A DNA stretch of 64,000 nucleotides from positions 3,906,001 to 3,970,000 of the forward strand of contig NZ_JACCCC010000001.1 in assembly GCF_013408795.1 (NCBI RefSeq). Reading direction: 5' to 3'. The notes under the pieces are model-generated. The model was given only the letters and a program-made list of their open reading frames with translations, was not told where the DNA came from and did no database searches. Numbering within the stretch: position 1 is the stretch's first letter; the number at the start of each line of letters is the position of its first letter. Below, one piece after another: positions 35,395 to 59,957 of the stretch. The position numbers and the translations under genes are program-made. Source of the DNA: Spinactinospora alkalitolerans (GTDB lineage: Bacteria > Actinomycetota > Actinomycetes > Streptosporangiales > Streptosporangiaceae).

Positions 35395-36669
35395 TCAGGC
35401 GCGGGTGTGAATCCGCTCGGACTCGGCGAGGTTGTCCGGCAGGCGCATTCCCGGCTGCAGTGGGACGAGTTCGGTCTGCAGCACCATGCTCGCCGCGCCG
35501 ATGGCGGGCGCGGTGGCCGCCGACTTGGAGAGCCGGACGTCGACCGAGTGCGTGGCCCGCGAGAAGAACGCGCGGTCGAGCTCGTCCTGGATCACCGGCA
35601 GGTAGGTCGAGCCCGCGACCGCCAGGCTCGGACCGGTGAGCACGAGCAGGTCGAGGTCCATGACGTTGGCCAGCGTGCGCACGGCGACCGCGAGGTAGCG
35701 CGCCGACCGCTCCATGATGGCGCGCGCCGCCGGTTCACCGCGGCGGGCGGCACGCGCGACCGCCGCGAACTCCGCCGCCACGGACGGCCGCGAGCGCGTG
35801 CGGCCGCCGGCCAGGCCGACCGCGCGGGCGAGCCCGGCGTCGGCGCGGGCCGCGGCGACGACCGCGGCCGGCCCGGCGAGGACCTCGGTGCACCCGCGCG
35901 CACCGCACCAGCACTCGGGGCCCTCCACGTCGAGGCAGATGTGCCCGATCTCGCCGGCGTTGCCGCTGGCGCCGTGGTAGGGGATCCCGTTGACCAGCAT
36001 GCCGGCGCCGATGCCGGTGCACATGTAGACGGCCGCGAAGGTCGAGGAGCCGTTGATGACGCCGGACCAGTACTCGCCGAGGGCCGCGGCGGTGGCGTCG
36101 TTGCCCAGGACGACCGGCAGCCCGATGGCCCGCTCCAGCGCCTGGTCGAGCGGGAAGTCCTCCCAGTGCCGCATCGGCGGCGGAGCCAGGCGCATGCCGC
36201 TGGTCGGGGTCAGCGGCCCGGGGGACACCAGCCCCGCGCCGAGCACCCGGTCCCGCTCGACGCCGACCCCGTCGATGAGCGCGTGCACCTCGCGGGCCAT
36301 CCGGTCGACGATGACCGGGGGGTCCTCCGCTCCGGCGCCCGCGCGGGTCATCCGGGCCACGACGGAGCCGCCGAGGTCGGTGAGCACGTAGGCGATGCCG
36401 GAGTGGTCCAGGTGGATGCCGACCGCGTACCGGGACGACGGGTTGAGCTGAAGCAGCACGCGGGGCTTGCCGCCGGTGGACTCCGCGCGCCCGGTCTCGA
36501 GCACGAGTCCGTCGTCGATGAGCTTGCGGACGACGGTGGAGATCGTCGCGCCGGTGAATCCGGTCGCGTCGATGAGCCCGACCCGGCTGATCGTTCCCGC
36601 AGCCCTGATCACGTCGAGCACCGCCGACCTGCTGCTCGCATGAGGTATGGCCCGTGCCGGCCCGCCCAC
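35395..36669 (-). CDS. ROK family transcriptional repressor of the galactomannan locus
   Basis: 424 residues from GTG 36669, chosen because CGGAGG lies 5 bases upstream. N-terminal winged helix: SRSAVLDVIRAAGTISRVGL, then TGATISTVVRKLIDDGLV. The ROK domain has LGNDATAAALGEYW, the motif GNAGEIGHICLD and zinc-binding CWCGARGCTEVL. Such repressors (XylR/NagC/Rok7B7-like) release DNA upon binding a sugar. It is divergent from the Opp-type importer and shares a 407-base regulatory region with it, with probable operators at 36741-36770 and 36956-36985. Confidence 0.92.
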   Translation of the reverse strand: MGGPARAIPHASSRSAVLDVIRAAGTISRVGLIDATGFTGATISTVVRKLIDDGLVLETGRAESTGGKPRVLLQLNPSSRYAVGIHLDHSGIAYVLTDLGGSVVARMTRAGAGAEDPPVIVDRMAREVHALIDGVGVERDRVLGAGLVSPGPLTPTSGMRLAPPPMRHWEDFPLDQALERAIGLPVVLGNDATAAALGEYWSGVINGSSTFAAVYMCTGIGAGMLVNGIPYHGASGNAGEIGHICLDVEGPECWCGARGCTEVLAGPAAVVAAARADAGLARAVGLAGGRTRSRPSVAAEFAAVARAARRGEPAARAIMERSARYLAVAVRTLANVMDLDLLVLTGPSLAVAGSTYLPVIQDELDRAFFSRATHSVDVRLSKSAATAPAIGAASMVLQTELVPLQPGMRLPDNLAESERIHTRA

Positions 36670-36740
36670 TGGAACCTCCGCTCGCGTCCTTGCATGGCGC
36701 CGGCGATGCCGATGCGCTTCCTCGGACCGCACGCTGCGCG

Positions 36741-36955: not shown

Positions 36956-36985
36956 TTGACTTTCTTTATTTGGCTGCTTAACAAT
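36956..36985 (+). promoter_or_regulatory. Promoter/operator of the ABC importer operon
   Basis: TTGACTTTCTTTATTTGG (36956-36973) followed by CTGCTTAACAAT. TTGACT can act as -35 and TAACAAT as -10. 23 of 30 bases are identical to the site at 44945-44974 before the beta-mannosidase, so both are likely bound by the ROK repressor. Confidence 0.6.
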
Positions 36986-37076
36986 GCCTGAAACCGAGCG
37001 ACTTGGTCCAGCCCCCGGGGGCACGGCCGGAGCGGCGCATCGGAAATGCCGAGACCGACCACGGAAGGGAACGAGC

Positions 37077-38768
37077 ATGTTCCTGCAGAGGATGCGTCGA
37101 CGCGGGCGCGCGATCGCAGTGGGGACGGCCGCCGTCGCCATGGCCGCCGGATGCAGCGGATCGGGCGGCGGGAACGGAGGCGGCTCCGAGGCCGGGACCC
37201 TGGTCGCCTACACCGGGCAGTCAGGCGACTACCAGCGCAACTTCAACCCCTACTCGCCGACCGCCAACGAGGGCCCCGGCACGATCTTCGAGCCGCTGTT
37301 CTTCTACAACCTCGTCCGCGACGAGGAGCCGGTCCCCCGGCTCGGCGAGGAGTTCTCCTGGAACGAGGACGGCACCGAACTGACGGTCACCGTGCGCGAC
37401 GACGTCACGTTCACCGACGGCGAGCCGTTCACCGCCGAGGACGTGGCGTTCACCTTCGACATGGTCGCCGCGAACCCGGCCATCAACCAGGGCGGCTACG
37501 AGGGTGAGGCCGAAGCGGTCGACGACACCCACGTGCGGGTGACCTTCGACGAGCCCGCCTACATGGACGCCCCGCAGCTCCTCGGCAAGACCTGGATCGT
37601 GCCCGAGCACATCTGGTCCGGCGTCGAGGACCCCACCACCGACCGGATCAACGAACCGGTCGGCACCGGCCCCTACATGCTGGAGGACTTCCAGCCCCAG
37701 GCGTTCACCCTGGCCGCCAACCCCGACTACTACGGCGGCGAGCCCGCGGTGCGCAACCTCCGCTACCTCGCGCTGTCGGGCAACCAGTCCGGCGTCGACG
37801 CGCTGGGCGCCGGCCGGATCGACTGGATGACCGGCCCGGTGCCCGACATCCAGAACGTCGAGGAGAACTACCCCGGCTACTCCGCCATCACGGTGCCGAT
37901 GAACCAGATGGCGCTGTTCACCTGCTCCAGCACCGACATGGGTTGCGAGGGCCCGCAGACCGATCCCGAGGTGCGCCGGGCGATCTACCACGCGATGGAC
38001 CGCACCCAGCTCAACACGCTGGCCTTCGAGGAGACCGCGAGCGAGATCTCACCCGGATTCGCGCTGCCCGAGCGCGACATGGAGGTCGTCTCCTCCGAGC
38101 TGGAGGCCCAGATCGCGCCGATGGAGCCCGACACCGACGAGGCCGCCCGCCTGCTGGAGGACGCCGGCTGGACCGTGGGCGATGACGGCGTCTACGCCAA
38201 GGACGGCGAGCGGCTCTCCCTCACGGTCACGGTCCCCACCGGCTGGAGCGACTACATCACCGCGCTCAACACGATGTCCCAGCAGCTCTCCGAGATCGGC
38301 ATCGAGCTGACCCCGCAGCAGGTCTCCTACAACGAGTGGGGCGACTCCCGCGCCCAGGGCCAGTTCGAGCTGCTGATGGACTCGCTCAACCAGGGCCCGG
38401 CGCCCGACCCGTTCTACGTGTACTCCTACTTCTTCTCCTCCGACACCACCGCTCCGGTGGGCGAGACGGCCAATCCCAACTACGCCCGCTACTCCGACCC
38501 CGAGGTGGACGAGGCGATCGAGGCCCTGCGCGGCATCGACCGGGGCGACGCCGAAGCCCGGCAGGAGCACTTCGACACCATCCAGGCCGCGATCGCCGAG
38601 GACATGCCCTACATCCCGGTCCTCACCGGCGGCACCACCAGCGAGTTCAACGTGGAGAAGTTCTCCGGCTGGCCCACCGAGGAGGACACCTACGCCTACC
38701 CGGCGGTCTGGGGCCGCCCCGACCAGTCGCAGATCTTTTTGAACCTGACCCCCGACGGCGGCGAATAG
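37077..38768 (+). CDS. ABC transporter substrate-binding lipoprotein, family 5
   Basis: 563 residues from ATG 37077, GGAAGGG upstream. A lipoprotein signal ends in VAMAAGCSG. The body matches the DppA/OppA-like SBP family 5: FEPLFFYNLV, FTDGEPFTAEDVAFTFDMV, IVPEHIW and VGTGPYMLEDFQPQAFTLAA. Despite the peptide-type fold, family 5 receptors in several bacteria bind manno- or cello-oligosaccharides (for example in Thermotoga). Given the alpha-galactosidase and beta-mannosidase genes downstream, a galacto-manno-oligosaccharide is the likely ligand. First gene of the importer operon. Confidence 0.92.
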   Translation: MFLQRMRRRGRAIAVGTAAVAMAAGCSGSGGGNGGGSEAGTLVAYTGQSGDYQRNFNPYSPTANEGPGTIFEPLFFYNLVRDEEPVPRLGEEFSWNEDGTELTVTVRDDVTFTDGEPFTAEDVAFTFDMVAANPAINQGGYEGEAEAVDDTHVRVTFDEPAYMDAPQLLGKTWIVPEHIWSGVEDPTTDRINEPVGTGPYMLEDFQPQAFTLAANPDYYGGEPAVRNLRYLALSGNQSGVDALGAGRIDWMTGPVPDIQNVEENYPGYSAITVPMNQMALFTCSSTDMGCEGPQTDPEVRRAIYHAMDRTQLNTLAFEETASEISPGFALPERDMEVVSSELEAQIAPMEPDTDEAARLLEDAGWTVGDDGVYAKDGERLSLTVTVPTGWSDYITALNTMSQQLSEIGIELTPQQVSYNEWGDSRAQGQFELLMDSLNQGPAPDPFYVYSYFFSSDTTAPVGETANPNYARYSDPEVDEAIEALRGIDRGDAEARQEHFDTIQAAIAEDMPYIPVLTGGTTSEFNVEKFSGWPTEEDTYAYPAVWGRPDQSQIFLNLTPDGGE

Positions 38769-38827
38769 CGCACGCGGCGAGGAGGCGAGCAGGCACATGA
38801 GGCGACCGACGCGATTGGCAGCGACCG

Positions 38828-39818
38828 ATGAGGTACTACGTCCGCAAGATCGGGTTCTACGTCGTCGCCCTGTGGGTGGCGCTGACCCTGAACTTCTTCA
38901 TCCCCCGCATGCTGCCGGGCAACCCGGTGGACGTGCTGATGGCGCGGCTGGCGCAGCGCGGCGGCAGCGTCGACCCGGCCACCCGGCGGGCCTTCGAGCT
39001 GATGCTGGGCACCGACGGCGACGAGCCGCTGTGGAGCCAGTACATCTCCTACCTGGGCAACCTGGCCCGGGGGGGACCTGGGGGTCTCGGTCAGCGTCTT
39101 CCCCACGCCGGTGTCGGAGGTCATCGCGCAGGCCCTGCCGTGGACGATCATGCTGGTGGGCATCTCCACCGTCATCTCGTTCGTCCTCGGGGTGGGCCTG
39201 GGGGCTCTGGTCGGCTGGAAGCGCGGCACCTGGCTCGACTCGCTGGTGCCGGGCACGACCGTGCTCGCGGCGGTGCCCTACTTCTGGCTGGCGCTGCTCC
39301 TGGCCGCGCTGCTCGCCTCCACGCTGAACTGGTTCCCGCTGCTCGGCGGCTACGACGTCGCCCTCATGCCCGGCTGGAACCGGGAGTTCATCCAGTCCGC
39401 CGTCTACCACGGGACCCTCCCCGCGCTGACGATCGTGATCTCCTCGGTCGGCGTGTGGCTGCTGGGCATGCGCAACATGATGGTCTCGACCTCCTCCGAC
39501 GACTACGTCACCACGGCCGAGGCCAAGGGGCTGCGCAGCGTCCGCATCATGACCCGCTACGCGGCCCGCAACGCGGTGCTGCCGTCCTTCGCCGGGTTCG
39601 CGGTCTCGCTGGGGTTCGTCGTCTCCGGCTCCATCGTGACCGAGCAGGTGTTCTCCTACCCCGGCATCGGCACCCGGATGCTGCAGGCGGTGCAGTACAA
39701 CGACTTCGCCCTCATGCAGGGGATCTTCCTGGTGATCACGGTGGCCGTGCTGGGCGCGAACCTGATCGTCGACCTGCTGTACGGCGTCATCGACCCCCGC
39801 ACCCGAGCGGGCGACTGA
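38828..39818 (+). pseudogene. ABC permease 1 (OppB/DppB type), frameshifted
   Basis: The N-terminal part from ATG 38828 reads MRYYVRKIGFYVVALWVALT, then IPRMLPGNPVDVLMARLAQR and ends at NLARGG. The remainder, VSEVIAQALPWTIMLVGIST through AEAKGLRSVRIMTRYAARNA to 39818, lies in another frame. The switch is at a run of seven G (39069-39075); six G would give NLARGDLGVSVSVFPTPV and a normal 329-residue permease. Everything else is intact and the operon is otherwise perfect, so this is either a very recent inactivation, phase variation or an assembly error. Confidence 0.88.
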
Positions 39819-39839
39819 CCACGGAAAGGAGCCGACACC

Positions 39840-40820
39840 ATGACCGGCCTCAGCCCGCTCACCGAGACCTCCGAAGACCCCGCCCGGGATCCGGCCGCAG
39901 GGGCCGCCGCGGCTCCGGCGGCCCGGTCCCGCAGCGGCCTCCGCTCACTGCTGCCGCGCTGGACCCCGCTGCTCGGCACCGGCCTGGGCCTCGTCGTCGC
40001 GATCGCCCTGTTCGGGATCGTCGCCCCGTTCTTCGTCGGCGACCCGAACGCGGTCGACAACAGGGGCCTCACGCCCCCCGGCGACGGCTTCCTCCTCGGC
40101 ACCACCCAGACCGGCCAGGACGTCTTCGCCCAACTGGCCCACGCCACCCGCGGATCGCTGCAGATCGGCCTGCTCGTCGGGGCCCTGGCCACCCTGCTGT
40201 CCGCGTTCTTCGGGATCATCGGCGGATACATCGGCGGCGCGGTGGACGAGGCGTTCTCGCTCGCGTCCAACGTCATGCTGGTCATCCCCGACCTGCCGCT
40301 GGTGATCGTGATCTCCGCGATCGTCCCGGCCGACCAGCGGGGCTGGTGGACCATCGCGGTCGTGCTGGCCGTCACCGGCTGGGCGGCGTCGGCCCGCGTG
40401 CTGCGCGCGCAGACGCTGTCGCTGCGCAACCGGGACTACGTCGCGGCGGCGCGCGTGGCCGGGGAGAAGCCCTGGCGGATCGTGTGCGTGGAGATCCTGC
40501 CCAACCTGCTGCCCGTTCTGGCCTCGCAGTTCGTGTACGCCGTCATCGCGGCGATCCTCACCGAAGCCGGCCTGTCCTTCCTGGGGCTGGGCGCCTCCAA
40601 CTCCGCCACGCTCGGCACGATGCTGTTCTACGCGCAGAACGGCTTCGCGCTCCAGCAGTCGGCGTGGTGGTGGTTCGTGCCGCCCGGCCTGATGATCGCG
40701 CTGTTCGGCTGCGGACTGTCCCTGATCAACTTCAGCATCGACGAGATCATCAACCCGAAGCTGCGCGGCGTCCCCAAGAGGCGGGCCGCGCGCAGCCGGC
40801 AGAGGAGCGCCGCCGCATGA
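39840..40820 (+). CDS. ABC permease 2 (OppC/DppC type)
   Basis: 326 residues from ATG 39840 with AAAGGAG upstream. An Ala/Pro-rich cytoplasmic N terminus (1-35) precedes six membrane helices. The EAA loop [20 protein letters not shown] and [12 protein letters not shown] are those of BPD permeases of the peptide/oligosaccharide group, and [20 protein letters not shown] is the OppC hallmark. It pairs with permease 1. The stop overlaps the next start as ATGA. Confidence 0.93.
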
Positions 40821-41749
40821 CGACCGGCACCATGACCGGACCGCGCCGCGGTACCGGCCCGACCGAGGGCGACGCCGTCCTGACCGTCGACCACCTGAAC
40901 GTGGTGTACCAGGTCGAGACCCCGGTGCACGCCGTCAAGGACGTCTCGCTGACCCTGCGCCGGGGCGAGATCCTGGGCCTGGCCGGCGAGTCCGGCTGCG
41001 GCAAGACCACCCTGGCCTACGCCGTCAACCGGCTGCACCGGCCGCCGGCGGAGGTGACCTCGGGATCGGTCACCTTCCACGACCGCGGCGGCACCGACAT
41101 CGACCTGCTCGCCCTGCAGCGGGAGGAGCTGCGCCGGTTCCGCTGGGCGAAGCTGTCCATGGTCTTCCAGGGCGCGATGAACGCCCTCAACCCGGTGATC
41201 TCGATCCGCGCCCAACTGGAGGACGTGCTGACCACGCACGAGCCCGGCATGGGGCGGCGCGAGCGGCGGCGGCGCTGCGCCGACGTCCTCGACCTGGTCG
41301 GCGTCGACCCCGCGCGGATGAACTCCTTCCCGCACGAGTTCTCCGGAGGCATGCGCCAGCGCGTCATGATCGCCATGGCGCTGCTGCTGGAGCCGCAGGT
41401 CGTCATCATGGACGAGCCCACGACCGCCCTGGACGTCGTGGTCCAGCGCGGCATCCTGCAGGAGGTCCTGCGGTTGCGCGACGAGCTGGGCTACGCGGTC
41501 GTCTTCATCACGCACGACCTGCCGCTGCTGCTGGAGCTGAGCGACCGGATCGCCATCATGCTGCAGGGCGAGGTCGTGGAGTACGCGCCGGCCGACGTCG
41601 TCTACGAGCGGCCCGCCCACGCCTACACCCGCCGACTGCTGGGCTCCTTCCCGAGCCTGACCGGTGAGCGGGGCGCGTTCGTCCGCGACTCCGGCTCGCG
41701 GACCGACCCCACCGACCCGGCCGCGGGAGGCCACGATGACCACGCTTGA
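40817..41749 (+). CDS. ABC transporter ATPase 1 (OppD/DppD type)
   Basis: 310 residues. Walker [11 protein letters not shown] loop [11 protein letters not shown], signature EFSGGMRQR, Walker [13 protein letters not shown] and switch His ITHDLPLL are all present. The C-terminal oligopeptide-type extension [14 protein letters not shown] is the Opp/Dpp family tag. It drives import with ATPase 2. Start ATG 40817 overlaps the permease stop; the 3' end overlaps ATPase 2 by 14 bases. Confidence 0.96.
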
Positions 41750-42635
41750 GGTCCGCGACCTCGTCAAGGACTTCCCCCTGCGCTCCGGCCTGCGCCGCTC
41801 GACCCTGCGGGCGGTGGACCGGGTGGGCTTCACCCTCACCCCGGGGCGCACGGTCGCCCTGGTCGGGGAGTCCGGATCGGGGAAGTCCACGGTCGCCAGG
41901 ATGATCGCGCGGCTGGAGCGGCCCACGTCCGGACGGATCACCGCCGTCACCGACGAGGGCGAGCCGGTCGGCAGGCGGTCCTACCGCGACCACGTGCAGA
42001 TGGTGTTCCAGGACCCGTTCGCCTCGCTCAACCCGTTCCACACGATCGAGCACCACCTCGTCCGCCCGCTGCTGCTGCACCAGCGCGCGATGGGGCGCAC
42101 GGACACCCGGTTGCAGGTCGAGCACCTGCTCGAACGCGTCAACCTGCGGCCGGCGGCCGACGTCGCCGGGCGCCGCCCGCACGAGCTCTCCGGCGGCCAG
42201 CGCCAGCGCGTCGCCATCGCCCGCGCGCTGGCGCCGGGCGCCAAGGTGGTCGTCGCCGACGAGCCGGTCTCCATGCTCGACGTCTCGATCCGGCTCGGGG
42301 TGCTCAACCTGCTCGCCCGCCTGCAGCGCGAGGACGACCTCGCGGTCCTCTACATCACGCACGACCTCGCGACCGCGCGGCACTTCTCCGACGACATCCT
42401 CGTGATGCACCGCGGCCGCGTGGTCGAACGCGGGCCGGCCGACGACGTCATCCTCACCCCGCAGCACCCCTACACGCGGCTCCTGGCGTCGGCGGCGCCC
42501 GACCCGGAGGCCCGCGGCCGTCCGAGCCTGAGGGAGGCCGGCACCGACTCCGGCCGCGACTACGGCGACCGCACCTACGACCACGGCGCCAAGGCGTGGC
42601 TGCGCCCCGACGGCACCGTGGAATCCGCCGCCTGA
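41736..42635 (+). CDS. ABC transporter ATPase 2 (OppF/DppF type)
   Basis: 299 residues from ATG 41736. Walker A GESGSGKST, Q loop VFQDPFASLNP, signature ELSGGQRQR, Walker B VVVADEPVSMLD (Asp-Glu kept) and switch His THDLATARHF. HPYTRLLASAAPDP is the oligopeptide-type C-terminal motif. Last gene of the importer operon; it converges on the alpha-galactosidase gene across a hairpin. Confidence 0.96.
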   Translation: MTTLEVRDLVKDFPLRSGLRRSTLRAVDRVGFTLTPGRTVALVGESGSGKSTVARMIARLERPTSGRITAVTDEGEPVGRRSYRDHVQMVFQDPFASLNPFHTIEHHLVRPLLLHQRAMGRTDTRLQVEHLLERVNLRPAADVAGRRPHELSGGQRQRVAIARALAPGAKVVVADEPVSMLDVSIRLGVLNLLARLQREDDLAVLYITHDLATARHFSDDILVMHRGRVVERGPADDVILTPQHPYTRLLASAAPDPEARGRPSLREAGTDSGRDYGDRTYDHGAKAWLRPDGTVESAA

Positions 42636-42726: not shown

Positions 42727-44907
42727 CTACACCCGCGTCGCCCGCAGCAGCACGAGCCGCTCGGGGAAGAGCACCGGGGCCTGCAGGCCGACGTCGGCGA
42801 GCACCCGCCCGGACAGGTGCACCCCCTGCGGGGTCCACCACGGCAGGTCCACCCCCCACCGGCTCGCGTTGCCGTCGGGGACGTCGCCGGGGGCCTGCGG
42901 GCGGACGCGGTAGGTGGCGTCGGGGTCCAGGCCCGGCAGGCTGACGGGGCCCGGAGGGTACAGCTCCGAGGTCGCGGTGGCGACGATGGCGTAGACCGCC
43001 TCGGAGGCGTCCCGGGCGACGACGCCGTGTACCCGGTAGGCCGGGTCCGGATGGTCGGCGTGCACCGCGGTGCCCGAGTGCAGCAGGGGGCGCAGCTCCT
43101 TGTAGAGGGCGACCCACTCCCCCAGCCGGGCCGCGTCGTCGGGGTCGGCGCGGGTGATGTCCCACTCGATGCCGAAGTGGCCGAAGAGCGCGGTGCCGGC
43201 CCGGAAGTCGATGACGTGCCTGCGGTCGGTGGTGTGGGCGACGCCGGAGCCGACGTGGGTGCCCATGAGCTCCAGCGGGATCAGAGCGTTGGTCCAGCGC
43301 TGGATCTGCTGGCGCTCCAGGGCGTCGATGCAGTCCGAGACCCACACGCGGTCGGTCCGCTCCAGGATCGCCAGGTCGACCCGTCCGCCGCCCGAGGAGC
43401 AGGACTCGATCTCCACGCCGGGGTGGCGCCGGCGCAGCTCGTCGAGCAGCCGGTAGGCCGCCAGGGTCTGGTCGTGGACGCCGGCCCGACCGGTCGTCCG
43501 GTGGCCGGCCTCGACGAGGTCGCGGTTGTGGTCCCACTTGAGGTAGGAGATCGGGTAGGTGGAGAGGAGTTCGTCGAGGCGCTCCAGGATGTGGGCGAAG
43601 ACCTCGGGGCGGGCGAGGTCGAGCACCTGCTGGGAGCGCGCCCGCCCGGGCAGCCGCCCCTCCGCGGCCATGATCCAGTCGGGGTGGGCCCGGGCCAGGT
43701 CGGAGTCCTCGTTGACCATCTCGGGCTCCACCCAGATGCCGAACTGCATCCCCAGGCCCGTCACGTGGTCGGTCAGCGGTCCCAGCCCGTCGGGCCAGAC
43801 CTCGTCGGAGACGTACCAGTCGCCCAGTCCCCTGCGGTCGTCGCGGCGGGAGCCGAACCAGCCGTCGTCGAGCACGAACCGCTCCGCGCCCACCGCGGCC
43901 GCGGCGTCGGCCAGCTCGCGCAGCCGGGCGAGGTCGTGGTCGAAGTAGACGGCCTCCCAGGTGTTGACGACAACCGGCCGGGGCGTGGAGGGATGGCGCG
44001 GACGGGCGCGCAGGTGGCGGTGGAAGCGGGCCGACAGGTCGTCCAGGCCGTCGCCGTAGGAGCCGTACTGCCAGGGCGAGGTGTAGGAGGCGTCCGGCTC
44101 CAGCAGCACCTCCCCGGACAGCAGCAGCTCGCCCGACCCCAGCAGCGACACCGCGTGGAAGGTCCGTTCGGCGAAGGTGCGGTGGTTGCCCGACCAGCCG
44201 GTGTGCACGCCCCACGCCTCGCCGGCGCGGTTGGCGAAGCCGGCGGTTCCGGCGACGAGCAGGTAGGCGGCGTCGTAGCCGGTGCGGCCGGTGCGGTTCT
44301 CCCGCACGCGCAGGCCCTGGGTGAAGGGGGTGCGCTGCGGGCTGCGCTCGCGCAGGTGGTGGCCGGTGAAGTCGAGCAGCTCGACGGCGGCGGTCGGCAC
44401 GGGCAGCGTGAGGTCGAGCGCGTCGAGGGCGAAGCGGGAGGCGCCGCGGTTGACCACCGTCGCGCGCTGGCGCACCAGTCCGGCCGGGCAGAGCTCGACC
44501 GTCAGCTCCAGGCCGAGCCGGGCGGTGTCGTCGTCGGCCCGCACGACGACCCGGCCGCCCGTGTCGGGCCGGTCGTCGTCGGCCACCAGGGTCGCCTCGC
44601 GGACCCGGAAGGCCGTGGAGAAGTCCGCGCCGCCGCGGTTGCCGACGAGGCCGGGCGTGCCGAGCCAGCCGGCCGACTGCTCGGGCAGCACGGCCACCGG
44701 GACGGGACCGTCCACCGAGAAGCCGATGGGCTGCGGCCGCCGGGCGAGCCGGAGGTCCTCCAGCGCGGGCCGGCTCAGCGCGCCGAGGTCGGCGCCCCAG
44801 TGCAGCACCCGGGGCAGGAAGCCGCCGGAGAGGTCCAGTACGAGGCTCACCCCGGCCGCGCGCAGGTGCGCCATCCCGAAGTCCAGAGCAGCGAGGTGTG
44901 GTGCCAC
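42727..44907 (-). CDS. Alpha-galactosidase, GH36
   Basis: 726 residues from GTG 44907, no signal peptide, so cytoplasmic. The GH36 core has WEAVYFDHDL, LDDGWFGSRRDD, FGIWVEPEMVNEDSDL, nucleophile D459 in YLKWDHNRD, ESCSSGGGRVDL and the probable acid/base D525 in VWVSDCIDALERQQIQ. N-terminal beta-sandwich and C-terminal sheet are of full length for the bacterial tetrameric type. It removes alpha-1,6-galactose from galactomanno-oligosaccharides or raffinose-type sugars. It reads towards the importer and away from the mannosidase. Confidence 0.95.
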   Translation of the reverse strand: MAPHLAALDFGMAHLRAAGVSLVLDLSGGFLPRVLHWGADLGALSRPALEDLRLARRPQPIGFSVDGPVPVAVLPEQSAGWLGTPGLVGNRGGADFSTAFRVREATLVADDDRPDTGGRVVVRADDDTARLGLELTVELCPAGLVRQRATVVNRGASRFALDALDLTLPVPTAAVELLDFTGHHLRERSPQRTPFTQGLRVRENRTGRTGYDAAYLLVAGTAGFANRAGEAWGVHTGWSGNHRTFAERTFHAVSLLGSGELLLSGEVLLEPDASYTSPWQYGSYGDGLDDLSARFHRHLRARPRHPSTPRPVVVNTWEAVYFDHDLARLRELADAAAAVGAERFVLDDGWFGSRRDDRRGLGDWYVSDEVWPDGLGPLTDHVTGLGMQFGIWVEPEMVNEDSDLARAHPDWIMAAEGRLPGRARSQQVLDLARPEVFAHILERLDELLSTYPISYLKWDHNRDLVEAGHRTTGRAGVHDQTLAAYRLLDELRRRHPGVEIESCSSGGGRVDLAILERTDRVWVSDCIDALERQQIQRWTNALIPLELMGTHVGSGVAHTTDRRHVIDFRAGTALFGHFGIEWDITRADPDDAARLGEWVALYKELRPLLHSGTAVHADHPDPAYRVHGVVARDASEAVYAIVATATSELYPPGPVSLPGLDPDATYRVRPQAPGDVPDGNASRWGVDLPWWTPQGVHLSGRVLADVGLQAPVLFPERLVLLRATRV

Positions 44908-44944: not shown

Positions 44945-44974
44945 TTGACTTACTTTATTTGATGACGTAAGAAT
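44945..44974 (+). promoter_or_regulatory. Promoter/operator of the beta-mannosidase gene
   Basis: TTGACTTACTTTATTTGA (44945-44962) followed by TGACGTAAGAAT. Same layout and 23 of 30 bases as the importer promoter at 36956-36985. Located 107 bases upstream of the GH2 start and 38 bases from the divergent GH36 start; probably a ROK-controlled site for both. Confidence 0.6.
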
Positions 44975-45081
44975 CCAGAACGATACCTGGTTCGCGCAAC
45001 AGAACTCCACCGGCCGCCCCCTCGCCCCCTTCCCGTTGATCCGCCGCCGCACGGCGCGGACCGAACCTGGAGTGACCGAAG

Positions 45082-47559
45082 ATGATGCGTCAGACCCTGC
45101 ACGACGGCTGGCTCCTGTCGACAACCGCCGGACCGGTCCCCGAACACGTGGCGGGCCGCAGCGTGCCGGCCCGGGTGCCGGGCAGTGCGCACCTCGACCT
45201 GCTGGCGGCCGGCCTGATCCCCGACCCCTACCTCGACCGCGCCGAGGAGGAGCTCGTCTGGGCGCATCGCACCGACTGGCGCTACACGCTCACCTTCGAC
45301 GCCGAGGCCCCGGAGCCGGGGGAACGCGTCGACCTCGCCTTCGACGGCCTGGACACGGTGGCCACCGTCGAACTGAACGGCCGGGTGCTCGGCAGCACGG
45401 CCAACATGCACCGCGGATACCGCTTCGACGTGCGGGAGGTGCTCAGGAACGGTCCCAACGAACTCACCGTCTCCTTCCGCTCGGCGCTGGAGCACGCCGA
45501 AGAGGTCGAGCGCGCCCTGGGCGAACGCGCGCACGCCTACCCGCACCCGTTCAACATGGTCCGCAAGATGGCGTGCGGCTTCGGCTGGGACTGGGGGCCG
45601 GACCTGCAGACGGCCGGGATCTGGAAGCCGGTGCGCCTGGAGCGCTGGCGCACCGCCCGCATCGCCCAGGCGCGCCCGCTCGTGACGGCCGAGGAGGGCG
45701 GCGCCGGACGGGTGGAGGTGCACGTCGAGATCGAGCGCGCCGACGCCGACGCCGGGCTGGCGCTGCGCGCCTCGGTGGGCGGGCGGGAGGCGCGCGCCGC
45801 CGTCGCGGCCGGCGCGACCGGGGCCGTGGTCGTCCTCGACGTCCCCGACGTGCGCCTGTGGTGGCCCGCGGGCTACGGGGACCAGCCGCTGTACGACCTC
45901 GACGTCGCGCTCGTCCGCGCGGACGCCTCCGGCGCGGTGCTGGACTCGGCGTCCCGGCGCATCGGGTTCCGCACGATCACCGTGGACACCGAACCCGACG
46001 AGATCGGCACCCCCTTCACCGTCGTGGTCAACGGGACCCCGATCTTCGTCAAGGGCGCCAACTGGATCCCCGACGACCACTTCCTCACCCGCATCACCCG
46101 CAGGCGCCTGGCCCGGCGCGTGGACCAGGCCGTCGGAGCCCACATGAACATGCTGCGGGTGTGGGGCGGCGGGATCTATGAGACCGAGGACTTCTACGAC
46201 GTCTGCGACGAGCGCGGCGTGCTCGTGTGGCAGGACTTCCCCCTGGCGTGCGCCTCCTACCCCGAGGAGGAGCCGCTGCGCAGCGAGATCGAGGCCGAGG
46301 CCAGGGAGAACGTCGCGCGGCTGGCCTCACACGCCTCCCTCGCGCTGTGGAACGGCGGCAACGAGAACCTGTGGGGCTTCATGGACTGGGGCTGGCGGGA
46401 GCGGCTCGCCGGGCGCACCTGGGGGCTCGGGTACTACACCGAGCTGCTGCCGCGGATCGTGGCCGAACTCGACCCGACCCGCTTCTACGCCGAGGGCAGC
46501 CCCTACAGCCCCGGGTTTCCGCTGGACCGGATGCACCCCAACGACCAGGACCACGGCAGCCGGCACGAGTGGCGGGTGTGGAACGAGGTGGACTACACGG
46601 CCTACCGCGACCACGTCCCGCGCTTCTGCTCGGAGTTCGGCTTCCAGGGCCCCCCGACCTGGGCGACCCTGACGACCTGGGTGCACGACGACCCGATGAC
46701 GCCCACCTCGCCCGGATTCCTGCTGCACCAGAAGGCCGAGGACGGCAGCGGCAAGCTCGACCGCGGGCTCGCCCCGCACCTGCCCGCGCCCGAGACCTTC
46801 GAGGACTGGCACTGGGCGACGCAGCTCAACCAGGCCCGCGCGGTCGCCTTCGGAATCGAGCACTTCCGCTCCTGGTGGCCGCGCACGGCCGGGGCGATCG
46901 TCTGGCAGCTCAACGACTGCTGGCCGGTCACCTCCTGGGCCGCGGTCGACGGCGACGAGCGGCGCAAGCCGCTGTGGTACGGGCTGCGGCACGCCTACGC
47001 GCCCCGCCTGCTCACCCTCCAGCCCGGGGACGGCCGCCTCGCGCTCGTCGCGGTGAACGACGACGACAGGCCCTGGACCGGTCCCGTGCGGATCGAGCGC
47101 CGGACGTTCGGGGGCGCCGTGCTCGACACCGCTAAGATCGAACTCACCGTGGCCCCCCGGTCCGCGGCCCGGTTCGCGCTGGCCGATTCGCTGCTCACGC
47201 CCGCAGATCCGAGCAAGGAGGTACTCGTGGCGACATCCGACGACGCCCGTGTCGCCCACCTCTTCCTGGAGGACCTCGCCCTGGACTACGACCCGCACCC
47301 GCTGACGGCCGAGGCCGTGGCCGTGCCGGGCGGCTACCGGGTCGACGTGCGCGCCCGCTCCTTCGCGCGCGACGTCGCGGTCCTGGCCGACCGGGTCGCC
47401 CCCGATGCGGAGGTGGACGACATGCTCGTGTCGATGCAGGCCGGAGAGACCCGCTCGTTCACGGTGCGGACCGGCGCGCGCCTGGACCCGGCCGAGCTGA
47501 CGGGCCCGCTGGTGCTGCGCTGCGCCAACGCCCTGTCCCCTCAGACGGCGCGGTCCTGA
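45082..47559 (+). CDS. Beta-mannosidase, GH2
   Basis: 825 residues from ATG 45082, no signal peptide. N-terminal sugar-binding sandwich (DLAFDGLDTVATVELNG, GFGWDWGPDLQTAGIWKPV), central immunoglobulin domain, and TIM barrel with MNMLRVWGGGIYE, acid/base E428 in NGGNEN and nucleophile E518 in FCSEFGFQG. GWDWGP and the WNGGNEN form are typical of beta-mannosidases rather than beta-galactosidases. It cleaves beta-1,4-manno-oligosaccharides from the non-reducing end in the cytoplasm. The stop codon is directly followed by the start of the headless LacI gene. Confidence 0.95.
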   Translation: MMRQTLHDGWLLSTTAGPVPEHVAGRSVPARVPGSAHLDLLAAGLIPDPYLDRAEEELVWAHRTDWRYTLTFDAEAPEPGERVDLAFDGLDTVATVELNGRVLGSTANMHRGYRFDVREVLRNGPNELTVSFRSALEHAEEVERALGERAHAYPHPFNMVRKMACGFGWDWGPDLQTAGIWKPVRLERWRTARIAQARPLVTAEEGGAGRVEVHVEIERADADAGLALRASVGGREARAAVAAGATGAVVVLDVPDVRLWWPAGYGDQPLYDLDVALVRADASGAVLDSASRRIGFRTITVDTEPDEIGTPFTVVVNGTPIFVKGANWIPDDHFLTRITRRRLARRVDQAVGAHMNMLRVWGGGIYETEDFYDVCDERGVLVWQDFPLACASYPEEEPLRSEIEAEARENVARLASHASLALWNGGNENLWGFMDWGWRERLAGRTWGLGYYTELLPRIVAELDPTRFYAEGSPYSPGFPLDRMHPNDQDHGSRHEWRVWNEVDYTAYRDHVPRFCSEFGFQGPPTWATLTTWVHDDPMTPTSPGFLLHQKAEDGSGKLDRGLAPHLPAPETFEDWHWATQLNQARAVAFGIEHFRSWWPRTAGAIVWQLNDCWPVTSWAAVDGDERRKPLWYGLRHAYAPRLLTLQPGDGRLALVAVNDDDRPWTGPVRIERRTFGGAVLDTAKIELTVAPRSAARFALADSLLTPADPSKEVLVATSDDARVAHLFLEDLALDYDPHPLTAEAVAVPGGYRVDVRARSFARDVAVLADRVAPDAEVDDMLVSMQAGETRSFTVRTGARLDPAELTGPLVLRCANALSPQTARS

Positions 47560-48438
47560 ATGGGAGCGTCGGAACGCGACCTCACCGGCTCGGGAGCGGT
47601 CGGACTGGTGCTCGCCCGGCCGGCCCGGCTGCTCGGCGTCGAACCGTTCTTCATGGAGTTCATCGGCGGGATCGAGGAGCGCCTCGCGGAACGCGACATG
47701 TCCGTCCTCCTGCACATCGTCGCGACGCAGGAGGCGGAGGTCGCCACCTACCGGCGGTGGGCCGAGCGGCGGCTGGTGGACGCGGTCGCGGTGGTCAACC
47801 TCACCGTCGACGACCGGCGCCCGGCGGTCCTGCACGAGTTGGGCCTGCCGGCCGTGCTCGTCGGGACGTGGGAGGGCAGTCCCGCCACGCCCGCCGTGCG
47901 CACCGACGACGCCGCCCCCGTGCGCGACGCGCTCGCGCACCTGCTGGGTCTGGGGCACCGGCGCATCGCGCGGGTGAGCGGGCCCGCCGCGCTGCTGCAC
48001 ACGCACGCGCGGACCGCGGCGCTGCTCGACGGGTGCCGCGCGGCGGGCGTGGAGCCGCCGCTGATCGTCGAGGGCGACTACTCCCGCGAGGCGGGGACGA
48101 GGCTGACCGCCGAGCTGCTGCGCAGGGAGGACCCGCCGACCGCGGTCCTGTACGACAACGACGTGATGGCGGTCGCCGGCCTGGAGGCCGCCAAGGAGCT
48201 CGGAGTCGCCGTGCCGGAGCGGCTGAGCATGGTGGCCTGGGACGACTCGACGCTGTGCCGGCTGGCGTCGCCGCCCCTCACCACCATGAGCGTCGACGTG
48301 TACCAGTACGGCGTCTCGGTCGCCGAGTCCGTCCTGGAGCGGATCGACGGCGTGCCGGTGACCGAGAGGTGGTCCCCGGCCGCCCGGCTCGTGCCCAGGG
48401 AGAGCACGGCCCGCTGCGGCGTGCGCACGACGGCCTGA
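47560..48438 (+). CDS. LacI-type ligand-binding protein lacking the DNA-binding head
   Basis: 292 residues. It begins at ATG directly after the mannosidase stop (TGA-ATG) and starts with RDLTGSGAVGLVLARPA, the remnant of the LacI hinge and first core strand. The whole core follows: LLGVEPFFMEFIGGIEERLA, LGHRRIARVSGP, PPTAVLYDNDVMAVAGLEAA and MVAWDDSTLCRLASPPLTTM. The 55-60 residue helix-turn-helix that should precede it is absent. It is closely related to the complete LacI protein encoded 155 bases downstream. It could dimerise with that protein or act as a sugar sink; DNA binding alone is not expected. Confidence 0.85.
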   Translation: MGASERDLTGSGAVGLVLARPARLLGVEPFFMEFIGGIEERLAERDMSVLLHIVATQEAEVATYRRWAERRLVDAVAVVNLTVDDRRPAVLHELGLPAVLVGTWEGSPATPAVRTDDAAPVRDALAHLLGLGHRRIARVSGPAALLHTHARTAALLDGCRAAGVEPPLIVEGDYSREAGTRLTAELLRREDPPTAVLYDNDVMAVAGLEAAKELGVAVPERLSMVAWDDSTLCRLASPPLTTMSVDVYQYGVSVAESVLERIDGVPVTERWSPAARLVPRESTARCGVRTTA

Positions 48439-48557: not shown

Positions 48558-48568
48558 CAACCGGTTCA
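48558..48568. promoter_or_regulatory. LacI operator before the intact LacI gene
   Basis: CAACCGGTTCA with a perfect AACCGGTT core (48559-48566), the LacI/GalR-type operator shape, 26 bases before the GTG start. Suggests autoregulation. Confidence 0.55.
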
Positions 48569-48593: not shown

Positions 48594-49619
48594 GTGCGTC
48601 GTCCCACCATCGTCGACATCGCCAAGGCGGCAGGGGTCTCCAAGGGGTCGGTCTCCTACGCGCTCAACGGCAGACCCGGCGTATCGGAGGCGACGCGGCG
48701 GCGCATCCTGTCCATCGCCGAAGATCTGGGCTGGGCGCCGAGCACGGCGGCACGCACGCTCTCCGACGGGCGGACCGACGCGATCGGGCTGGTCATCGAC
48801 CGGCCGGCCCGAACGCTGGGCCTGGAGCCCTTCTTCATGGCGCTGATCTCGGGCATCCAGACCGCACTGGCCGAGACCTCGACGTCGCTGCTGCTGCAGG
48901 TGACGCAGGAGCAGCGGCAGGAGATGAGCACCTACGCGTCCTGGCACGCGCGGCGGCGCGTCGACGGGGTGCTGGTGGTCGACCTGCGAACGGACGATCC
49001 GCGGCCCGCCGCGCTGCACGGGCTCGGCCTGCCGGCGGTCCTCATCGGCGGCCCGCTGCCCGGCGCGGCCCAGCCGTGCGTCTGGTCCGACGACGCCTCG
49101 GTGGTCCGCGAGGTGCTGGAGTACCTGGCGGCCTTGGGGCACCGGCGCATCGCCAGGGTCGCGGGCCCCGCCCACCTCCTGCACACGCGCACGCGGTCGC
49201 GGGCCTTCGAGGAGTCGGCGGCCGAGTTCGGGCTGGACGACTGCGGCATCGTCCATTCCGACTACTCCGACGAGGCCGGGGCCCGCTCCACCCGCCGGCT
49301 GCTCTCCAGGCGCCGGCCCCCGACGGCGCTCATGTTCGACAACGACCTGATGGCGGTGTCGGCCCTCGGGGTCGCGCGGGAGATGGGTTTCGCCGTCCCC
49401 GGTGACCTCTCCATCGTCGCCTGGGACGACTCCCCGCTGTGCCGCATGATGCGGCCGCCGCTCACCGCCGTGAGCCGGGACGTCGAGGCGCACGGGGAGC
49501 AGGCCGTGCGGGTCCTGCGGGACGCTCTGGCCGGTGCCGTCCCGCATGATGCGGCGACGCCGCCCGCCGTGATGGTCCCGCGCGCCAGCACGGGACCGCC
49601 GCCGGCCCGCCGATCCTGA
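48594..49619 (+). CDS. LacI family transcriptional regulator
   Basis: 341 residues from GTG 48594, with AGAGGAAA upstream. Full architecture: head RRPTIVDIAKAAGVSKGSVS with YALNGRPGVSEATRRRI, hinge AARTLSDGRTDAIGLVI, and the core LEPFFMALISGIQTALA, LGHRRIARVAGP and IVAWDDSPLCRM. It is a clear paralogue of the headless protein upstream. Operators with AACCGGTT lie before this gene and before the downstream mannose isomerase, its probable target. Confidence 0.94.
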   Translation: MRRPTIVDIAKAAGVSKGSVSYALNGRPGVSEATRRRILSIAEDLGWAPSTAARTLSDGRTDAIGLVIDRPARTLGLEPFFMALISGIQTALAETSTSLLLQVTQEQRQEMSTYASWHARRRVDGVLVVDLRTDDPRPAALHGLGLPAVLIGGPLPGAAQPCVWSDDASVVREVLEYLAALGHRRIARVAGPAHLLHTRTRSRAFEESAAEFGLDDCGIVHSDYSDEAGARSTRRLLSRRRPPTALMFDNDLMAVSALGVAREMGFAVPGDLSIVAWDDSPLCRMMRPPLTAVSRDVEAHGEQAVRVLRDALAGAVPHDAATPPAVMVPRASTGPPPARRS

Positions 49620-49682: not shown

Positions 49683-49711
49683 TTGACACTTAACCGGTTC
49701 AGTGGTGTTCT
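49683..49711 (+). promoter_or_regulatory. Promoter with LacI operator before mannose isomerase
   Basis: TTGACA at 49683-49688 is followed directly by TTAACCGGTTCA (49690-49701), a palindrome with the same AACCGGTT core as at 48559. TGTTCT at 49706-49711 is a weak -10. A bound LacI dimer would cover the spacer, so repression is expected. Confidence 0.6.
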
Positions 49712-49801: not shown

Positions 49802-51025
49802 ATGGTCCGGTCCGCCCATGACCCCGCGCCGCCGGCGTGGGCGAGCGCGCAGCGCGACGGACTCGTCGCCTGGGCCGAGCGCGCCCGGCACCCGCACGGG
49901 TTCGCCTGGCTGGACGACAGCGGGCGGCCGCGCGAGGAGGAGGGCGTCCACACCTGGATCACCGCCCGTACCACGCACGTGAGCGCCCTGCACGCGCGCG
50001 AGCGGGGCGGCGCGGCCGGCGAGCTGGCCGAGCACGGGGTGCGCGCCCTGCTGGACTCCCTGCACGACGGCGAGCACGGAGGCTGGTTCTCCCGGGTGGA
50101 CTTCGAGGGCGCTCCGGCCGACACCGGCAAGGCCGGCTATCAGCACGCCTTCGTCCTGCTGGCCGCGGCCACCTCCTGCGGCAGCGGTGTGACCGGGGCC
50201 GACCGCCTGCTCGGGAGGGCCTGCGCGGCGGTCACCGAGCGGTTCTGGGACGAGGCCGCCGGGCGCGCCGTCGAGGGCTTCGACCGCGGCTGGACGCGGG
50301 CCGAGCCCTACGGCGGCGCCAACAGCAACATGCACATGGTCGAGGCGTTCCTGGCGACCACCGCCGCCACCGGCGATCCCGTCTGGGCCGAACGCGCGCT
50401 GCGCATCGCCGACTTCTTCGTCCGCGAGCAGGCCGCGCCCAACGGGCACCGGCTCGCCGAGCACTACACCGCCGACTGGACCGCCGAGCCCGACTACAAC
50501 CGGGACCGGCCCGACGACCCCTTCCGCCCCTACGGCTGGACGCCCGGGCACTCCCTGGAGTGGGCGCGGCTGCTGCTGCACCTCGAAGCCGCGCTGCCCG
50601 CCCCGCCGGCATGGCTGCTGCCCGAAGCCGAGGCGCTCTTCGCCACCGCGGTGCGCGGCGCGTGGGCGCGCGACGGCGCCGACGGCTTCTGCTACACGCT
50701 CGACTGGCAGGACCGCCCGGTCGTGGGCGCGCACATGCACTGGGTGGCGACCGAGGCGATCGCAGCGGCCGAAGCGCTGTTCCGGCGCACCGGACACGAC
50801 TCCTACGCCGGGCTCGCCCGGGACTGGTGGACCCACCTGCGCGCCTGCTTCATCGATGGCGCGGACAACTGGCGGCACGAGCTCGACGCCCGGAACCGGC
50901 CCGCACGCACCGTGTGGCGCGGGCGCCCGGACGTCTACCACGCCTACACCGCGCTGGCGTTCGCCTGCGACCTGGCGATCCCCGGATTCGCCGTCCGCAC
51001 GGCGCAGCCGGACGGGGCGGCGTGA
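49802..51025 (+). CDS. AGE family isomerase, probable D-mannose isomerase
   Basis: 407 residues from ATG 49802 with GGAGAT upstream. An (alpha/alpha)6 barrel with the AGE/YihS signs: GWFSRVD, KAGYQHAFVLLAA, GANSNMHMVEAFLA, PYGWTPGHSLEWARLLLHLE and ADNWRHELD, where His residues form the active site. The YihS/mannose-isomerase branch turns D-mannose into D-fructose; a mannose isomerase of this type has been described from Thermobifida fusca. In this locus it would connect released mannose to fructose metabolism. N-acylglucosamine epimerase is the alternative but less fitting. Confidence 0.85.
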   Translation: MVRSAHDPAPPAWASAQRDGLVAWAERARHPHGFAWLDDSGRPREEEGVHTWITARTTHVSALHARERGGAAGELAEHGVRALLDSLHDGEHGGWFSRVDFEGAPADTGKAGYQHAFVLLAAATSCGSGVTGADRLLGRACAAVTERFWDEAAGRAVEGFDRGWTRAEPYGGANSNMHMVEAFLATTAATGDPVWAERALRIADFFVREQAAPNGHRLAEHYTADWTAEPDYNRDRPDDPFRPYGWTPGHSLEWARLLLHLEAALPAPPAWLLPEAEALFATAVRGAWARDGADGFCYTLDWQDRPVVGAHMHWVATEAIAAAEALFRRTGHDSYAGLARDWWTHLRACFIDGADNWRHELDARNRPARTVWRGRPDVYHAYTALAFACDLAIPGFAVRTAQPDGAA

Positions 51026-55970: not shown

Positions 55971-57158
55971 TCACACGCCGTAGAGCCAGTCGACGTGCTT
56001 GAAGTCGGCCGGGTCGCGGTCGGAGAACAGCTCGTTGCGCAGCAGCCGGGCGAGCCCGTCGACGTGCCAGATGTCGCCCCACACCCGCGCCGTCCTCTGC
56101 ACGCGGGCCGTGCGTTCGGTCCGCGCCTCCTGGTAGGCCGCGAGCGCCGCGGGCCATCTCGGGCCGTCCGCGGCCGCGGTCTTGTCGACCTGCGCCGACA
56201 GGCAGTGCGCGTCCTCGATCGCCTGGCAGGCGCCCTGCGCGAGGTACTGCAGCATCGGGTGGGCCGCGTCCCCCGTGAGCGCGAGGCGGCCGTCGATCCA
56301 GGTGGGGATCGGTTCGCGGTCGTACATCGGCCACCTGCGGGTGCGCCACAGCGACCGCAGCCCGCGGCGCACCTGCGCGCAGGCGCCGGAGAAGACCTCG
56401 TCCAGCTCTTCGGGGCCGCCCCAGTCCTGCTCGCCCCGATGGTAGGCCGGCGACTCGAAGACGGCGACGGTGTTGAACATCTCGCCGCCGCGCAACGGGT
56501 ACTGCACCAGATGGTGCCCCGGTCCGAGGTAGACGACGACCTGCTCCAGGGCCTGCCCGTCCAGCTCGTCGCCGAGCTCGGCGACGGGGAGCGCGCCGCG
56601 GTAGGCGACGTAGCCGGAGCAGACGGGCGCGTCACCGCTCAGTTTCGCCCGCAGGGACGAGTGCAGGCCGTCGGCGGCGAGGACCACGTCGGCGCCGATC
56701 CTGCGGCCGCCGACGAGAGCGACGGCCGCCTCCGGCCCGGTCTCGACGTCGTCGACGCGCGTGTCCGCCAGCAGTTCGACCCCCGCGCCGCGGCAGCCCT
56801 CGGCCAGGATGTCGAGCAGGTCGCTGCGGTGGATGACGACGTAGGGCGCGCCGTAGCGGGCCTCGAACTCCTCGCCCAGGTCGAGGTGGGTCAGCTCCCC
56901 GCCGTCGACGGCGTCCTTGAACACCAGTCGCCGGGGCCGGACGCCCTTGTCGAGCACGGCGTCGAGCATGCCCCACTCGCGGAGGACGCGGGTGGCGTTC
57001 GGCGCCATCTGCAGGCCCGCGCCGACCTCGGCGAACTCCGGCGCCCGTTCGAGCACCGTCACCTTCCGGCCCGCGCCGGCGAGGGCGTAGGCGTTCGCCA
57101 GCCCGCCGATGCCGCCACCGACGACGATGACGTCACCGCCCCTGTCGACTTCGCTCAT
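55971..57158 (-). CDS. FAD monooxygenase, probable 3-hydroxybenzoate 6-hydroxylase
   Basis: 395 residues from ATG 57158. Group A flavoprotein hydroxylase: VIVVGGGIGGLANAYALAGA (dinucleotide fold), VVLAADGLHSSLRA (DG motif) and LTGDAAHPMLQYLAQGACQA (GD motif and ribityl contact). The last motif and the length fit 3-hydroxybenzoate 6-hydroxylase and salicylate hydroxylase. Because it follows the gentisate genes on the same strand, making gentisate from 3-hydroxybenzoate is the best fit. A 185-base gap separates it from them. Confidence 0.88.
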   Translation of the reverse strand: MSEVDRGGDVIVVGGGIGGLANAYALAGAGRKVTVLERAPEFAEVGAGLQMAPNATRVLREWGMLDAVLDKGVRPRRLVFKDAVDGGELTHLDLGEEFEARYGAPYVVIHRSDLLDILAEGCRGAGVELLADTRVDDVETGPEAAVALVGGRRIGADVVLAADGLHSSLRAKLSGDAPVCSGYVAYRGALPVAELGDELDGQALEQVVVYLGPGHHLVQYPLRGGEMFNTVAVFESPAYHRGEQDWGGPEELDEVFSGACAQVRRGLRSLWRTRRWPMYDREPIPTWIDGRLALTGDAAHPMLQYLAQGACQAIEDAHCLSAQVDKTAAADGPRWPAALAAYQEARTERTARVQRTARVWGDIWHVDGLARLLRNELFSDRDPADFKHVDWLYGV

Positions 57159-57273
57159 GTCCTTCGCCTTCCGTTGCGTTGCCGTGCGCACTCGGCCCTT
57201 GCGCACCCGCCCCTCATCGAGCTCCGACCGCCGAGTCCGCGGGGCGAGGCGGAACTTCCAAGGCGCGGATCCG

Positions 57274-57320
57274 CTGTGCCGCCGGCGGCTTGCGCGCACT
57301 GCGGCAGCCGACTCCCTGTG
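57274..57320 (-). repeat. Dispersed repeat, copy C
   Basis: Reverse complement of copy A at 7017-7063 in order and sequence: on the minus strand CACAGGGAGTCGGCTGCCGC, then AGTGCGCGCA and CCGCCGGCGGCAC. Lies in the 185-base gap between maleylpyruvate isomerase and the monooxygenase. Confidence 0.6.
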
Positions 57321-57343
57321 CACACCCGATCATCGAACATCGA

Positions 57344-59876: not shown

Positions 59877-59957
59877 GCCTGCACTCCTTCGGATCGAACC
59901 GGATCTCGAAGGACGACTCTGCCCCTTCTCCCGTCCACTGGGATAGGTTTTTCTGTT

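Follow-up and report, generated by a model that had tools for sequence, protein, structure and literature searches.

A sugar-binding core of the LacI type that has no DNA-binding head is encoded directly behind a beta-mannosidase gene in Spinactinospora alkalitolerans. This protein, further referred to as HL (headless LacI-type sugar-binding core), is widely conserved in actinobacteria and is not a broken gene. It is best read as having descended once from a LacI-type repressor through loss of the DNA-binding head. With regard to its function, we lean tentatively towards a cytoplasmic manno-oligosaccharide sensor that would act in trans with a repressor of the ROK family. More speculative is the wider idea that a headless LacI core became the trans-acting sugar sensor of a ROK repressor, a protein of an unrelated family, in a split two-family switch conserved across actinobacteria, the head having been lost after the ROK protein took the operon. 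The window, i.e., the whole stretch of 64,000 nucleotides that was analyzed, corresponds to positions 3906001-3970000 of a genome of 6.68 Mb. Its two central genes are the following:

45082..47559, plus strand: GH2 beta-mannosidase, 825 amino acids, with a stop codon that adjoins the HL start
47560..48438, plus strand: HL, 292 amino acids, ATG start

The GH2 gene ends with TGA (47557-47559), and the very next codon, in the same reading frame, is the ATG of HL. Pfam assigns Peripla_BP_3 (E 2e-30) and Peripla_BP_1 (E 2e-18) to HL, and the LacI helix-turn-helix (HTH) was absent in this search. The ORF coordinates and the Pfam matches confirm the claim of an earlier note on this DNA that a headless LacI core begins right after the mannosidase stop. 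A head that was missed upstream or in another frame was ruled out, as the mannosidase occupies that space. The LacI/GalR family is described as being defined by two domains together, an HTH head and an effector-binding core (PMC4052901). HL has the C-terminal effector-binding core (PF13377/PF00532), while the N-terminal HTH (PF00356) is absent in HL as well as in all of the 80 relatives described below. HL thus has the LacI fold, yet it does not belong to the LacI family of transcription factors because the head is missing. Read by eye, the sequence has no apparent hydrophobic N-terminus or signal peptide, and HL would therefore be located in the cytoplasm.

Two details of the earlier description do not hold. 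HL had been called fused to the mannosidase, but these are two separate ORFs. Moreover, a fusion by stop-codon readthrough was ruled out as it is not conserved: of the 68 relatives in which a mannosidase is adjacent, only 15 share the frame. The start of HL had also been seen as a hinge remnant, RDLTGSG, left by precise removal of the head. The residues preceding the first core strand differ among lineages (MSASAHGSAGSG, MGATPTGSV and VGRSE are examples), so no hinge relic is conserved.

The relatives that were studied are the best 80 of 570 confirmed genome-scan matches and belong to several actinobacterial families; the closest named ones, among the matches listed, are Nocardiopsis, Streptomyces and Streptomonospora. 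All 80 are headless, both in an HTH motif search and in tblastn with the head of the neighboring intact LacI. The fetched loci contain 210 LacI-like places, 117 of which are nearer to HL, all without HTH, and 89 nearer to the intact paralogue, with HTH; the last four are remote LacI proteins from other subfamilies. HL is under purifying selection, with dN/dS values of 0.05-0.40 in 13 close pairs. In a quick tree of all 81 HL proteins they form one group (support 97), with the headed protein L027 as sister (support 95). A careful tree with outgroups, containing 27 of the 81, likewise gives one headless group (97/70), here with all headed proteins beside it (84/62), and one label change in 200 of 200 bootstrap trees. 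The HL of L057, labeled 'Glycomyces fuscus', groups inside Nocardiopsis and that of L066, labeled 'Nocardia sp. NRRL S-836', groups with Crossiella, by transfer or because the genomes are mislabeled.

A decaying pseudogene or a local deletion would account for the missing head, but this explanation is extremely improbable given the headlessness of all 80 relatives, the dN/dS values and the single label change. An assembly slip is ruled out on the first two of these grounds. The earlier note had named a complete head at this place in relatives as the sign of such an artefact or deletion. Complete heads do occur there, but none within the headless group. Two genomes that lack HL (G086 and G110), one from the family of the window organism and one from another family, have a headed LacI directly behind the beta-mannosidase, with a 4-base overlap (L240, L241). 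This points to an old head loss and not to an artefact. Perhaps the slot behind the mannosidase was first occupied by a headed LacI, which lost its head once.

The AlphaFold (AF2) model of HL is a confident LacI core (pLDDT 91.7), with 4o5a and the CelR-cellobiose complex 5ysz as nearest structures. Four residues, R151, N200, D228 and Y174, are invariant in 81 of 81 HL proteins in the alignment; we take them to match the LacI ligand contacts R197, N246, D274 and W220. The LacI ligand and dimer positions were mapped through one alignment, which is doubtful near LacI position 149. At the positions presumed to contact the ligand, mean entropy is 0.38, compared to 0.96 overall; at the two dimer faces, which we assign on the assumption of LacI-type dimer contacts, it is 0.56 and 0.64. 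Because the pocket residues are invariant and the dimer faces conserved, HL is probably a sugar-binding dimer. It has the same two-lobed sugar-binding core fold as LacI/GalR proteins such as CelR (5ysz) and the B. animalis LacI-type regulator (4o5a), and presumably retains their key ligand-contact residues. Unlike these proteins, HL has neither an HTH nor a conserved hinge, and operator binding in the LacI way is not possible.

The mannosidase gene lies directly 5′ of HL in 68 of these 80 loci (again the best 80 of 570), and in 59 of the 68 a start codon is found from -11 to +6 of the mannosidase stop. These nearly joined codons, together with purifying selection and the presumed contact residues being invariant, fit the earlier suggestion of a cytoplasmic sugar sensor or buffer. 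Adjacency and tight coupling would also suit HL as a regulatory subunit of the GH2 beta-mannosidase, either allosteric or stabilizing. However, 12 of the 80 loci have no mannosidase directly 5′ of HL, and HL persists in six of those genomes with only a 49-56% identical mannosidase elsewhere (G188, G191, G193, G157, G184 and G187), which makes a role as enzyme subunit improbable.

The window contains further genes of mannoside use, together with the ROK repressor that was overlooked when an intact LacI was named as the partner of HL:

35395..36732, minus strand: ROK-family repressor (Pfam ROK, E 2e-47), divergent from the transporter operon, whose orthologue co-occurs with HL
36956..36987, plus strand: promoter-operator element TTGACTTTCTTTATTTGGCTGCTTAACAATGC, before the gene of the solute-binding protein, score 41.7
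36984..38768, plus strand: solute-binding protein (SBP) of the transporter (SBP_bac_5, E 3e-66), ORF as called
38828..39818, plus strand: permease 1, its coding sequence divided between two frames here
39840..40820, plus strand: permease 2 (BPD_transp_1, domain match)
40817..41749, plus strand: ABC ATPase 1, the 3′ portion of a longer ORF that was called mechanically
41664..42635, plus strand: ABC ATPase 2 (ABC_tran and oligo_HPY, domain match)
42727..44907, minus strand: GH36 alpha-galactosidase, between transporter and mannosidase
44945..44976, plus strand: promoter-operator element TTGACTTACTTTATTTGATGACGTAAGAATCC, before the mannosidase gene, score 58.9

The ABC transporter (36984-42635) is of the peptide/oligosaccharide type, and the gene content suggests the use of galactomannan oligosaccharides. 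The true start of the SBP is probably near 37078, where a lipoprotein-like start is seen by eye, since the mechanical start at 36984 falls within the element at 36956-36987. About 255 bases of permease 1 are in one frame and the rest in another, with an overlap near 39072-39082; the gene is a single frame in eight relatives (nine tested, one without a match), and the split is either a mutation or a sequence error. Further along, positions 55971-60695 encode a FAD-dependent hydroxylase, a mycothiol maleylpyruvate isomerase, a fumarylacetoacetate-type hydrolase, a cupin protein and an IclR regulator, probably an ordinary gentisate pathway.

Both promoter-operator elements follow the consensus form TTGACTTaCTTtaTTC....TAAgAATC, which resembles a promoter whose -35 and -10 boxes flank a repressor site. 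Of the 69 regions upstream of a mannosidase that were examined, that of the window among them, 47 contain TTGACTTA[CG]. In a scan that covered 27 fetched HL loci and the window, the element was found before the SBP gene in 12 of the 12 scanned relatives holding that region (scores 33-43, cut-off 14), and directly before HL in L092 (57.4) and L087 (34.8), both without a mannosidase there. It had no match in 150,691 background bases of other neighborhoods. In the Lentzea loci it was not found before the mannosidase, which directly follows the transporter there. ROK repressor, ABC transporter and mannoside hydrolases thus share one operator-like element, which is consistent with a ROK-controlled mannoside regulon, and the ROK protein is the putative binder of the element.

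The co-occurrence of HL and the ROK protein was determined in 394 genomes of the class, with cut-offs of E ≤ 1e-72 for HL and at least 58% identity for the ROK orthologue; the identity cut-offs were chosen once the gaps in the lists of scores had been seen, and any HL protein with a match weaker than E 1e-72 would go undetected. HL is present in 14 of the 394 genomes, with all 14 proteins checked and headless, and the identical 14 carry the ROK orthologue. A GH2 mannosidase (E ≤ 1e-120) is present in 86 of the 394 genomes. Among 149 relatives, the same six genomes have HL and ROK, and those six are also among the 14. Whole-genome searches of 49 HL genomes, drawn from 50 of the 80 loci (L052 left out), identified a full ROK orthologue in 47 and a partial one in G189; in G182 there was none at E ≤ 1e-60. 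In 46 of the 49, no more than 20 kb separates the ROK gene from HL, the same contig being judged from coordinates. However, 13 of the 14 HL-bearing genomes of the class sample also have a mannosidase next to HL, so co-occurrence alone shows a shared module and not a link to ROK only.

What favors the ROK protein as the partner is its persistence next to HL in Micromonosporaceae loci from which the mannosidase is missing. In six loci of this family (L104, L108, L109, L111, L112 and L099) the ROK gene is directly 5′ of HL and no mannosidase is present in the locus; the identity of the ROK protein comes from a search for L104, L109 and L099 and from the protein start only for L108, L111 and L112. 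In the three Micromonosporaceae genomes tested, the 49-56% mannosidase elsewhere is the sole one. In L104, the one locus of the family tested for this, a gene for GH5 with CBM2 lies 3′ of HL.

The Micromonosporaceae loci also bear on the possibility that HL is a cytoplasmic sugar buffer that binds imported oligosaccharide and thereby sets the level of free inducer, or the induction threshold, without any protein partner. Such a buffer would be made in step with the mannosidase, as the positions of the start codons in 59 of the 68 loci indicate, and would have an invariant pocket. It is nevertheless rather unlikely, since HL in Micromonosporaceae is paired with ROK and not with the mannosidase, and since the presumed LacI-type dimer faces are conserved although a monomeric buffer needs none.

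Several observations speak against HL being a sensor for the ROK repressor. The co-occurrence may reflect inheritance as one cluster, given that the mannosidase link is nearly as tight. The ROK protein (35395-36732) has, by eye, EIGH and CWCGARGC motifs, presumably a sugar site of its own that was kept, and a second sensor may be unneeded. In L104 and four other Micromonosporaceae loci the full element was not found; weak matches (16-18) occur only in L099 and L111. Streptomyces hygroscopicus NBRC 13472 (L084/G182) has a full-length HL without a ROK orthologue (E ≤ 1e-60) or a GH2 mannosidase (E ≤ 1e-120). Conversely, in G233 a mannosidase (68%) comes after a ROK relative (51%) and HL is absent (L242, 7572-11400); an epimerase-like gene and a transporter are on the opposite strand, and this locus offers a natural comparison. 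Lastly, HL of Actinokineospora fastidiosa (L091/G186) is no longer part of the ROK-mannosidase cluster. It shares 4 bases with an intact lacI instead (L091, 5986-7829), and the ROK and mannosidase orthologues lie on another contig (G186 C5), about 9 kb from each other.

The intact LacI paralogue of the window lies 3′ of HL:

48559..48566, plus strand: AACCGGTT, weak copy of the operator of the intact LacI, before its own gene, score 10.7
48594..49619, plus strand: intact LacI paralogue, 341 amino acids, GTG start, HTH (PF00356, E 2e-13), same core type
49688..49703, plus strand: ACTTAACCGGTTCAGT, strong copy of this operator, before the epimerase gene, score 29.7
49802..51025, plus strand: GlcNAc 2-epimerase-family gene (PF07221), a probable target of the intact LacI

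The earlier note had called this an intact, close paralogue. It is intact, the HTH being present, but not close: it is 50% identical to HL over 275 residues and is placed on another branch in both trees. HL is therefore not a recent copy of the neighboring lacI gene, a possibility that was ruled out. Unlike HL, the paralogue has a DNA-binding head, and it has an operator of its own. Moreover, two presumed pocket positions usually differ: HL has R114 in 61 and V245 in 63 of 81 proteins, while of the 62 headed proteins 47 have W at the first position and 58 have R at the second. In other genomes the intact LacI is also tied to the same kind of transporters and mannosidases, and its operator, of a ACTTAACCGGTTAAGT-like form, precedes the intact lacI itself, transporters or the mannosidase. 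In five genomes of Nocardiopsis and a relative (L150, L151, L152, L155 and L158), the oligosaccharide transporter is beside an intact lacI with a AACCGGTT operator, while mannosidase and HL remain with ROK; uptake and hydrolysis may be divided between two regulators there.

It had been proposed that HL and intact LacI paralogues combine into inactive heterodimers, which would relieve repression of the regulon of these paralogues. The conserved positions presumed to form the dimer faces fit this, and a headed paralogue (E ≤ 1e-68) is present in 42 of the 49 HL genomes searched. In addition, an intact lacI of the subfamily is found within about 4 kb 3′ of HL in seven of 81 loci, i.e., the window, Streptomonospora (L043, L046 and L048), Umezawaea (L067), Amycolatopsis (L069) and Actinokineospora (L091), where the genes overlap. 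As a general rule, however, the proposal does not hold up well. Seven of the 49 HL genomes have no paralogue at E ≤ 1e-68, and a paralogue of the subfamily (E ≤ 1e-60) occurs in 49 of 143 genomes without HL (24 of these 49 were fetched as loci and are all headed). The headed proteins of HL genomes are spread over several branches of the careful tree. Fourteen core positions are near-invariant in HL and variable in headed proteins, and five of them presumably fall at LacI dimer or pocket positions. Furthermore, a weight matrix built from 12 sites that had been selected by eye was run over 20 HL loci and a portion of the window, and it yielded no operator of the intact LacI scoring at least 15 before the transporter, mannosidase or HL genes; weaker matches were present, and strong ones lay 3′ of HL (L182, L183, L184 and L187). 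Heterodimer formation is thus an unlikely function of HL. An intact LacI is optional near HL, and the ROK protein nearly constant.

Co-occurrence and neighborhood with ROK, the common element and the invariant pocket all argue for HL as a trans-acting sensor for the ROK repressor. HL would belong to a regulon for uptake and hydrolysis of beta-mannan and galactomannan under control of this repressor. HL, probably as a dimer, would bind an imported beta-manno-oligosaccharide, the presumed ligand, and in a ligand-dependent way would contact the ROK repressor. This contact would alter the grip of ROK on the TTGACTTaCTTtaTTC..TAAgAATC promoters, splitting sensing over two proteins. Because HL is made by the operon itself, feedback would result.

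Among known systems, HL would by analogy work most like AmiC-AmiR or NasS-NasT, with ROK as the presumed partner. AmiC has a binding-protein fold. In both systems, a stand-alone binding-protein-like sensor and the regulator of its operon are encoded side by side. NasS is described as a binding-protein-like sensor, predicted to be cytoplasmic, that holds a regulator (PMC3795266). HL has the binding-protein fold, with no export signal seen by eye, and is encoded with a candidate regulator, both within 20 kb in most HL genomes and directly adjacent in Micromonosporaceae. The difference is that the partner in the two known systems is an RNA-binding ANTAR antiterminator, while the candidate partner of HL is a DNA-binding ROK repressor. 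In Thermotoga, the ROK protein ManR controls mannoside genes with mannose as effector, and the portion of that source drawn on here mentions no headless LacI partner (PMC3750489). In the open-access literature (subscription journals being outside the scope), no title or abstract opening among the matches listed dealt with a LacI protein without a DNA-binding domain, also in combination with ROK, mannosidase or mannan. The LacI fold and ROK control of mannoside genes are known, and the presumed ROK partner of a headless protein is new. It is easy to take proteins like HL for truncated LacI regulators or ordinary substrate-binding proteins, and so to overlook them. Since HL is conserved together with ROK, it offers a concrete and testable example of a repressor that became a free sugar sensor. 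It is also a candidate for control of mannan use by two sensors in Streptomyces, Nocardiopsis, Lentzea and their relatives.
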